Positions 1,542-34,298 of a DNA stretch of 54,950 bases are shown piece after piece. Every line of letters begins with the position of its first letter. The stretch's first letter is position 1. Position numbers and translations under genes: made by a program. The DNA is taken from NCBI GenBank assembly GCA_947649875.1, contig CANSTH010000002.1, positions 1 through 54,950 on the forward strand, given 5' to 3'. The notes under the pieces are model-generated. The model did no database searches. It saw only the letters and a list, made by a program, of their open reading frames with translations, and was not told the DNA's origin. Source of the stretch: an uncultured Parvibacter sp. GTDB taxonomy: Bacteria > Actinomycetota > Coriobacteriia > Coriobacteriales > Eggerthellaceae.

Positions 1542-1963
1542 GGGAGTCCTCTCTGCAGGATGGCGGCTGCCGATGCGTCCAAGCTATCGAAATGATGCGT
1601 CAATTCCCACCAAGTTCTGTGGTCAATTGTACCCGCTACCCGCAACTATCAGTTTCCCAAACCTCTGAACTGGGAAAACTACCGAATGGTATCTCGCCGC
1701 CACCATGCAGCTCGCCTATCGTCACCATAAACGCCATCGGATAATACTGCCATCGTTCTCGCTTCGCTTGCTCATAAGGCGCGAACGGGCGTCGAACTTC
1801 TGGCGCATTCACGCCGCATGGGGCGCTAAACCTTGATGGAAGCTCGTGTAATGGGATTTCGGTTGGCCATGTACAATGCTATTCCCAGGTCAACAAGGAT
1901 ATCCACCGATGTATTCGCTACCCATCTTAGCAGCAAGCTCCTGTCCAACGAAACGAGTTCTCT

Positions 1964-3019
1964 ATGAAAATGCTCCTGCACCCCCTAACTGCAGCAGGTT
2001 TTTGGCTAACCAACGCACAGCCCATGAGCGCGCTAGGCACCTGCAAGGCAACAGAAATTACCCGGTTCGCTCCAACTCAAAAGACCATCGACTACCTCCG
2101 CGATTCCTATCCTCACATCCCCTGGCCCTTCCACGTCATCGTTACCCAAGGAAGACGCAATCCAACCGAAAGCTTCCGCTTCTACCAGATTCCCAAACAA
2201 TGGAGTCAGCAGCAATTTGCACGAATTGCCCCTGGCATTTACACTCCTTCTCCCGAACAAACACTCGCAAGCCTAGGAAAGCACCTCTCGATCCATGAGT
2301 TGATTTACCTCAGCAGCATTTTCTGCAGCGGTTTTCGTTTCGACCCCAATTCGCCCTTTGGTATTTCCCCCCGGACCCCACTGACTTCCATTGCAAAAAT
2401 CCGAGAATCCCTCAACTCGCCTTCACAACCCTATGGCTTTAGACCGCTTAAGCAGGCTCTTTCGTACATTACAGAGGGAGCCGAGTCTCCGCCCGAGGTT
2501 TTCATGAGCATGGCCTTGAGCCTACCGCAGAAATATGGCGGATCGGGAATTGCGCACTCGCTTGCCAACTGGACATACATGCCATCGCAAAGGGCCCAAG
2601 CAATTGCCGGCCGTGAGGTGGTACGACCTGATATCACTTTCGTTTGCAATGGCAAAATGGTTGCAGTCGAATACGATTCCGACAGTGCGCACCTTTCTAG
2701 GGCACAAGCAGAGCGAGATGAGGCGAAGCGCCTTGCCCTAGAAGCTGATGGAATGAAGGTCATCTCTGTTCGACCTGGGCATTTGAAGCGTGAAGACTAC
2801 ATGGATCTCGTTGCCCAGGAAATCTGTTTCCATTTGGACATTCGTCAAAGCAAACGACCAGAGTGTTACAGCGAGCAGCGCGACAAGCTCTTCCAGCTTG
2901 ATCGATCTCTGTCCCGCTTTTTCTTGTCTGTCGTAACCGTTGAGAACGCAGAAATCGGAACCCTTCGCACCGAGGCCAAGGCTCATCATCCGTACAAATC
3001 TTGTAATTTCGCGCAGTAA
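1964..3019 (+). CDS. AbiEi-like N-terminal region plus DUF559/Vsr-like PD-(D/E)XK-fold protein
   Basis: C-terminal RPDITFVCNGKMVAVEYDSDSAHLSRAQAERDEAKRLALEADGMKVISVRPGHL fits the DUF559/Vsr-like layout (D...EYDS..H, R..L...G..V..V); the true start may be downstream of 1964. Confidence 0.65.
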   Translation: MKMLLHPLTAAGFWLTNAQPMSALGTCKATEITRFAPTQKTIDYLRDSYPHIPWPFHVIVTQGRRNPTESFRFYQIPKQWSQQQFARIAPGIYTPSPEQTLASLGKHLSIHELIYLSSIFCSGFRFDPNSPFGISPRTPLTSIAKIRESLNSPSQPYGFRPLKQALSYITEGAESPPEVFMSMALSLPQKYGGSGIAHSLANWTYMPSQRAQAIAGREVVRPDITFVCNGKMVAVEYDSDSAHLSRAQAERDEAKRLALEADGMKVISVRPGHLKREDYMDLVAQEICFHLDIRQSKRPECYSEQRDKLFQLDRSLSRFFLSVVTVENAEIGTLRTEAKAHHPYKSCNFAQ

Positions 3020-3056
3020 GGGACGTTCTTCACATCAAATTGCAAGATTTGTACGG
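2990..3056. repeat. Inverted repeat CCGTACAAATCTTGtAATTT / AAATTgCAAGATTTGTACGG
   Basis: Arms 2990-3009 and 3037-3056, 19/20 complementary; the left arm overlaps the end of the upstream CDS. Confidence 0.9.
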
Positions 3057-3186
3057 CTTGCCAGCTAATTTGTGGGTGTTTCGGACAGTGGCGGTTCTTT
3101 AACTGCCATCTGAGCTGGGGAAATAATATTGCCCGATTCTCACAAGAGCCATTACGCGTACAAATCTTGGGATTCTGCGCATGATT

Positions 3187-3253
3187 CTGTACAAATCTCG
3201 CGTTTTCGTTCCTCGGAGGGTCTGCTTTGTGCAAAAACGCGAGATTTGTACAG
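3187..3253. repeat. Perfect 20-bp inverted repeat CTGTACAAATCTCGCGTTTT / AAAACGCGAGATTTGTACAG
   Basis: Arms 3187-3206 and 3234-3253; the core GTACAAATCT is also at 3158-3167. Confidence 0.92.
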
Positions 3254-3377
3254 CATGTTAGACATGGGGCAGCAAACAAGAAGGCGCCCACCGAAGGGCG
3301 CCCTCTTTTGACAGATTCTAGCTGTACTAGGCGCGGCAAACGTCTGACACTGTCTGCCCGATATTGCCGTGATGGCT

Positions 3378-3437
3378 GCACGGCGCTGCTGCCCGCCTGG
3401 CGCTGCGGCACGGCGCTGCTGCCCGCCTGGCGCTGCC
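3378..3437. repeat. Two tandem copies of a 30-bp GC-rich unit (GCACGGCGCTGCTGCCCGCCTGGCGCTGCG/C)
   Basis: 3378-3407 and 3408-3437 are identical except for the last base; degenerate copies follow. Confidence 0.9.
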
Positions 3438-3536
3438 GCACGGCATTGCCGCACGAGCGCCGCCAATCTGGTGCTGCACCCCAGTATTGCCGCGACGTCA
3501 CTACTGGCTTAGCATTACCACCCCAGTGCCGCTAGC

Positions 3537-15007: not shown

Positions 15008-15035
15008 GGCAGAGATAGAATCTCTGCCCTACGAA
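15008..15035. repeat. REP-like palindrome, family A copy 1
   Basis: GGCAGAGATAGAATCTCTGCCCTACGAA. Confidence 0.85.
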
Positions 15036-16108: not shown

Positions 16109-16194
16109 TTCGTAGGCAGACATTCCATCTCTGTCTAACCGACGGCCCGCATATACCAGCGCCCCAGGCAGACATAGAATGTCTGCCCTACGAA
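16109..16194. repeat. REP-like palindromes, family A copies 2 (degenerate, inverted) and 3
   Basis: TTCGTAGGCAGACATTCCATCTCTGTC (16109-16135) and GGCAGACATAGAATGTCTGCCCTACGAA (16167-16194). Confidence 0.85.
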
Positions 16195-16236
16195 GAGCCT
16201 GATGAAACGGTTTTCCGTCGTCGAAATGCGAACAGG

Positions 16237-26777: not shown

Positions 26778-26807
26778 GCACGCAACACCTCCGCCCTCAC
26801 ACCATTA

Positions 26808-26878
26808 GGCCGAGATAGAATCTCGGCCCTACGAAAACTCAGCGTTACCCTTCGTAGGGCGGAGATTCTATCTCCGCC
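26808..26878. repeat. REP-like palindromes, family A copies 4 and 5 (inverted pair)
   Basis: GGCCGAGATAGAATCTCGGCCCTACGAA (26808-26835) and TTCGTAGGGCGGAGATTCTATCTCCGCC (26851-26878), between convergent genes. Confidence 0.92.
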
Positions 26879-26924
26879 TGGAGTGCGACAACATGTCCGC
26901 CCTCGGAAGGCCGAGGCGGTAACC

Positions 26925-34264: not shown

Positions 34265-34270
34265 TTTCGT

Positions 34271-34298
34271 TTCGTAGGGCAGACATTCTATGCCTGCT
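34271..34298. repeat. REP-like palindrome, family A copy 6
   Basis: TTCGTAGGGCAGACATTCTATGCCTGCTC, with a second CTGCCCTACGA end at about 34308-34318. Confidence 0.8.

Follow-up and report, generated by a model that had tools for sequence, protein, structure and literature searches.

A DUF559-type nuclease gene and its gene-specific modules of inverted sites look like an undescribed selfish element in Actinomycetota

The window, by which we mean the whole stretch of 54,950 nt that was analyzed, comes from the draft genome (163 contigs, 86% complete) of an uncultured Parvibacter sp. Near its start lies a gene for a DUF559/MTES_1575-type protein, with an XRE regulator and an Fe-S/molybdopterin operon as neighbors, and the end of this gene runs into a cluster of short repeated sites that sits between convergent genes. 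The features of the locus are as follows.

1880..1892, + strand: TATTCCCAGGTCA, a single copy of the module-center motif, upstream of the gene
1964..3019, + strand: gene for a 351-aa nuclease of DUF559/MTES_1575 type, to which the sites probably belong
1964..2473, + strand: N-terminal AbiEi-like domain, aa 1-170, which probably reads the sites (predicted function)
2486..2839, + strand: C-terminal Vsr/EDxHD-like nuclease domain, aa 175-292, from structure and profile match
2990..3253, no strand assigned: module of five sites, 260 bp, of which the genome has seven copies
2992..3015, + strand: 24-bp site 1, score 37.4
3031..3054, - strand: 24-bp site 2, score 26.6, 15 bp from site 1
3111..3127, - strand: central motif of the module, TGAGCTGGGGAAATAAT on the + strand and ATTATTTCCCCAGCTCA on the - strand
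3158..3181, + strand: 24-bp site 3, score 37.3, lone, 7 bp ahead of site 4
3189..3212, + strand: 24-bp site 4, score 30.5
3228..3251, - strand: 24-bp site 5, score 38.3, 15 bp from site 4
3283..3302, + strand: terminator-like hairpin, just outside the module, downstream

A sequence-only reading of this DNA had pointed out five copies of the decamer GTACAAATCT within 260 bp, and these were recovered at the same positions and on the same strands (2992+, 3045-, 3158+, 3189+ and 3242-), with none elsewhere in the window; this is far above chance, as 0.02 copies would be expected and no shuffle reached five. The two inverted repeats that it described were found as well, 2990-3009/3037-3056 at 95% identity (19/20) and 3187-3206/3234-3253 at 100% over 20 bp, the latter extendable to 23 nt at 96%, and the first arm does overlap the end of the 1964-3019 coding sequence. 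Alignment of all copies in the genome showed the conserved unit to be a 24-bp site, GTACAAATCTYGCGATTYTGCGCA, rather than 10 bp, with the first ten bases being strongest and information still present at the final base. The module is laid out over 260 bp as (+ 15 bp -) ~103 bp (+ 7 bp + 15 bp -), a fixed five-unit architecture that recurs elsewhere in the genome. Site 3 has no inverted partner alongside, yet its conservation equals that of the other sites, which argues for selection on the site and not on the hairpin alone.

At the center of modules with differing sites, in Eggerthellaceae-like genomes, lies a GCGTTTTCCCAGGTCA motif (L044, L047, L073, L085, L087, L089 and the window), which is also present upstream of the gene. 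A role of the central motif as the gene's promoter was rejected, because from module to module it does not keep one orientation toward the gene. Since Vsr acts at Dcm-type CCWGG sites, a cut site of this type was weighed too, and was rejected because CCWGG is missing from several modules. Other repeats in the window include a 30-bp GC-rich tandem repeat adjoining the module (3375-3464), a 23-bp inverted repeat with a 27-nt loop (11693-11715/11743-11765, CGCCCTGGGAAAAGGATGCGAGC), which includes CCTGGGAAAA and thereby resembles the central motif of the modules, and a direct repeat of 104 bp, 99% identical (51612-51715/51788-51891).

The protein gives weak Pfam matches to MTES_1575/DUF559/DUF2726 and its predicted structure is PD-(D/E)XK, in agreement with the earlier statement that it is not a tyrosine transposase. 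In an AlphaFold2 model made with 30 homologues (pLDDT 87, pTM 0.87), residues 175-292 aligned best with the catalytic domain of I-Bth0305I (3r3p, Z 10.6, 95/97 residues, rmsd 2.3), which was also the best PDB profile match (E 0.0026). A Vsr-like catalytic domain with conserved E, D, H and D is present, and E178, D223, E236, H243 and D252 are invariant. Residues 1-170 aligned with the AbiEi antitoxin 6y8q_A (VIA-align Z 6.0, 120 residues), a moderate match that we regard as a lead. The PADLOC AbiEi model matched 1/30 members, the homing-endonuclease models of PADLOC and PHROG matched a few members, and with Foldseek alone nothing came in below E 0.001. Among the ORFs scanned beside the window gene, no AbiEii toxin was recognized.

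In this genome, 24 exact 12-mers of the site fell into seven clusters, with none for a reversed control. The seven module copies have a common architecture (C2, i.e. the window, C6, C11, C34, C36, C52 and C63, the last in inverted orientation); in some, one or two sites have decayed or been lost, and C30 holds a module fragment only. The window gene has a module downstream and none upstream, the C6 module is preceded by a broken 3'-end remnant of this same gene (40% identical, two stops), and the remaining modules are solo, the neighbors of the dispersed modules being unrelated housekeeping genes. The genes flanking the C63 module are ~530 bp apart here versus 40 bp between aligned stretches in the congener G002, which has no module there and represents the empty site. 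As the hairpins of this genome's copies are ~75% identical, the copies are old and any present activity of the element is putative. Two paralogues in the same genome (C46 and C73) have repeats of their own, differing from those of the window gene. A second dispersed family of short palindromes, AGGCCGAGATAGAATCTCGGCCCTACGAA, about 30 bp long and unlinked to the DUF559 gene here, was seen at 26807-26879, 15008-15034, 16165-16199 and 34268-34297 of the window, at L030 4007-4091 and at L031 1570-1602.

Repeats of the window's own site were not found in 59 relatives, where the decamer-plus-YG pattern gave just single chance matches in three, nor in pattern scans of 84,980 GTDB representatives and of IMG/VR, two collections that may omit records near this genome. 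A BLAST search with the module as query gave no match in phages or plasmids.

Relatives of the gene are accompanied by modules that are spelled differently. The closest same-genus homologue (G001, 40% identity) lies between two hairpin modules with the spelling GTTACCAAAGTCTCCAAAATGCGCACA, of which its genome contains about nine clusters, and a homologue in another genus (G014) has GCGAAGAATCGTCNATTTTG modules on both sides, with seven clusters in its genome. Three of the G014 copies share 84-89% identity across 260-370 bp, lone third site included, and have a common sharp left edge 8-10 bp ahead of the first site; dispersed copies have been duplicated recently in this relative. By de novo repeat search, many of the ~70 homologues are flanked left and right by a '+ ... 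-' site module, the spacing being equal in the two and the sequence peculiar to that gene. The module on the left is a direct repeat of the one on the right (L055, 95% over 213 bp; L072, 92% over 202 bp; L053, 87% over 220 bp; L107, 87% over 143 bp), and between them, where read, lies only the DUF559 gene.

A short constant target-site duplication was not seen in most copies, and two G014 copies have flanking direct repeats of 106-107 bp. These are the solo-module insertions at L117, between direct repeats 1395-1501/2172-2278 (107 bp, 90%), and at L118, between direct repeats 1426-1531/1846-1951 (106 bp, 94%); the repeats of the two loci are unrelated in sequence to each other and are possibly very long target duplications. 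Gene-specific site arrays at 31-bp spacing, i.e. three helical turns, were seen at L069 (2536-2963) and L110 (828-961 and 2436-2939), and 31 bp is also the spacing of sites 3 and 4 of the window.

In order to be counted in a strict test, a gene had to have matched modules on both flanks. The strict test was positive for 20/73 homologues, compared with 0/34 genes and 0/120 placements in window controls and 0/460 control placements with larger flanks. In 400 kb of the same genomes, 1/500 placements was positive, at another already listed homologue, and overall across the class 0 of about 650 control placements were positive. The Fisher p for 20/73 versus 0/499 is 1e-19, which is a rough guide, since homologues and overlapping placements are non-independent. 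Further homologues within the class were positive at 6/35 new loci, and distant DUF559 genes elsewhere in Actinomycetota at 6/9 and 8/20 (14/29), against 0/44 and 1/480 for their controls. The majority of homologues are negative in this test (53/73 of the first set and 29/35 of the further class homologues), through decay, looser sites or real absence. The sequence-only reading had tied its proposal to palindromes being present elsewhere in the genome and distributed in relation to the gene family, and both hold, with modules beside the family far above controls.

One Actinomycetota genus, presumably Mycobacterium judging from gene order, has a hairpin-gene-hairpin unit between methyltransferase and sirtuin genes, in genomes of mostly 4-7 Mb. 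The joined flanks were matched in 77/78 genomes, of which 52 were uninterrupted and about 16 split by 0.5-2.3 kb. Among the junctions that were read, most are empty, with 2-45 bp between aligned flanks, two (L183 and L185) have just one hairpin, its site sequence being the same, five have a gene that is 67-73% identical to the first and is flanked by two hairpins, and a sixth has a broken copy. Empty, solo and full junctions at one locus place the outer edges of the hairpins at or near the insertion ends. A perfect-arm hairpin pattern gave only 6 matches, in 4 of 15 mycobacterial genomes, which is no measure of dispersal. The convergent methyltransferase-sirtuin gap itself looks like an insertion hot spot (L176, L202-L209), with far larger inserts in some genomes (G358, G393) besides the DUF559 units.

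Modules that are linked to the gene, with a set architecture, lineage- and gene-specific sites and duplicated flanks, that are dispersed and duplicated, and that at one locus occur in empty, solo and full states, are consistent with the reading that we think probable, namely that proteins of the adjacent gene's family bind the repeats as their cognate sites and that the module is the end or landing unit of a mobile selfish nuclease element. Recognition sites, here predicted ones, are the favored choice among the functions that had been offered for the arms. We infer that the protein would bind the modules, cut them and drive their copying. In such a mechanism the AbiEi-like domain would read the 24-bp site, and each inverted pair, with its two 24-bp sites spanning 63 bp, would hold one dimer, whose nuclease would cut there; for comparison, I-Bth0305I dimerizes on a target of nearly 60 bp (PMC3943268). 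The full element would be module-gene-module, recombination or deletion between the two direct module copies would lose the gene and leave a solo module, and a cut solo module could take up the gene again from a full donor copy, so that an entire module would flank the gene on either side. Binding to these sites would probably repress the gene as well. More tentatively, reader and site may diverge together, such that no paralogue in a cell acts on the modules of another and the dimeric nuclease cuts its own solo modules and gets copied in, although we hold this fuller version to be somewhat doubtful. Against the element reading, flanking direct repeats could have another source, in tandem duplication and homologous recombination without the nuclease. 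Also counting against it are the single, downstream module of the window gene, the many homologues that are negative in the strict test, a site that is duplicated instead of destroyed, and the age of the copies in this genome.

The modules could instead be operators only, with the AbiEi-like domain repressing its own gene, the dispersed modules forming a small regulon, and the nuclease acting elsewhere, e.g. on mismatches or phage DNA. AbiEi and Rv2827c autoregulate via pairs of 23-bp inverted repeats, with a 3-bp gap in the case of AbiEi proteins, and a 13-bp gap within and 4 bp between pairs in the case of Rv2827c (PMC7319586), and the spacing here, 24-bp sites with gaps of 15 and 7 bp, is similar; in addition, the Caulobacter DUF559 protein VsrA has been proposed to act in mismatch repair (PMC12907096). 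We nevertheless consider this explanation unlikely, as modules lie downstream as well as upstream, in the form of direct duplicates, with the window module being downstream only, as solo modules adjoin unrelated housekeeping genes, and as empty, solo and full states together with duplicated copies indicate movement. Autoregulatory binding could exist in addition to mobility.

It is distinctly improbable, in our judgment, that the modules are a passive, MITE-like element moved by an unrelated transposase or by recombination, with the DUF559 gene as cargo between copies. Inverted arms, dispersed non-autonomous copies and a layout like that of a composite transposon, in which two direct copies enclose the gene, would all fit. 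The site sequence, however, varies from gene to gene, even among the paralogues of one genome (C2, C46 and C73), as expected if the flanked protein reads the site; modules that are otherwise unrelated enclose this one gene family across the phylum; and the product of the enclosed gene is a nuclease joined to a likely DNA reader. That the 3' end of the gene carries a structured RNA or terminators of transcription, both offered in the sequence-only reading, is very improbable: as RNA, both inverted pairs of the window module have strong folds for each strand (z -4.6 to -8.2) and the module lies between convergent genes, but site 3 has no adjacent partner to form a hairpin with, an Rfam search gave nothing near the gathering score, a separate terminator-like hairpin lies downstream at 3283-3302, modules occur upstream of the gene too in relatives, and the arms lack covariation, those of one hairpin being no more alike than those of different hairpins (p 0.26-1.0; 11 hairpins, little power), which suggests double-stranded sites rather than RNA or single-stranded hairpins.

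Returning to the mobile nuclease element, the known systems that it calls to mind each match in part. REP/BIME sequences with TnpA-REP (RAYT), or REPtrons, are dispersed intergenic palindromes, often inverted pairs, and lineage-specific (PMC8266576). The likeness to REP/RAYT that had been suggested stands as an analogy, in that matching copies of a lineage-specific palindrome lie dispersed and beside a gene of a nuclease-type family, but does not extend to the enzyme, which here is a Vsr/EDxHD-like PD-(D/E)XK nuclease with an AbiEi-like domain and not HUH Y1. The present system also differs in its 24-bp sites with 15-bp spacing, in having 7-9 clusters per genome rather than hundreds, and in the duplicated flanks and empty sites of the gene; a GTAG-type tetranucleotide before the stem is absent, the site starting with GTAC here and other families having unrelated ends. 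EDxHD homing endonucleases provide the closest solved nuclease domain (I-Bth0305I, likewise a dimer with a long target), but the gene here lies outside any intron or intein, has an AbiEi-like domain and has several chromosomal solo sites, and whereas homing enzymes usually insert into and destroy their own site, the gene here lies between two whole modules, with the site duplicated. AbiEi antitoxins of type IV toxin-antitoxin systems are alike in the N-terminal fold (6y8q, Z 6.0) and in paired inverted sites of 23 or 24 bp (PMC7319586), and unlike in that the domain here is fused to a nuclease and the sites are dispersed and, in relatives, on both sides of the gene. LTR-like and composite elements also have a gene between direct repeats, solo repeats and empty sites, but no reverse transcriptase, integrase or DDE transposase was seen in the element here, and its repeats are arrays of short inverted sites.

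In a literature search whose coverage stops short of preprints and most subscription journals, no paper joined DUF559 with inverted repeats or AbiEi, and DUF559 with mobility returned only unrelated papers and the Caulobacter VsrA study. What we describe looks like an undescribed selfish element built around a homing-type nuclease, with modules that in Actinomycetota relatives often lie on both sides. Because its enzyme is not that of REP/RAYT, its insertion mode is not that of EDxHD enzymes, and its AbiEi-like paired sites come with no recognized toxin, we file it as a new kind, which would work in a REP/RAYT-like way with an unrelated enzyme, and which has the EDxHD fold with another mode of insertion, the mechanism being a proposed one.

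DUF559-type 'endonuclease domain' genes are common in Actinomycetota, with up to 13 per genome here, mostly without a known role. If the element reading is true, they would represent selfish elements with readable, gene-specific targets, whose function can be tested gene by gene because each gene carries its own predicted binding site. It would also explain a class of dispersed intergenic repeats, provide naturally diverged DNA readers, each paired with a long target site, and add a second, unrelated type of enzyme to the REP/RAYT way of life.
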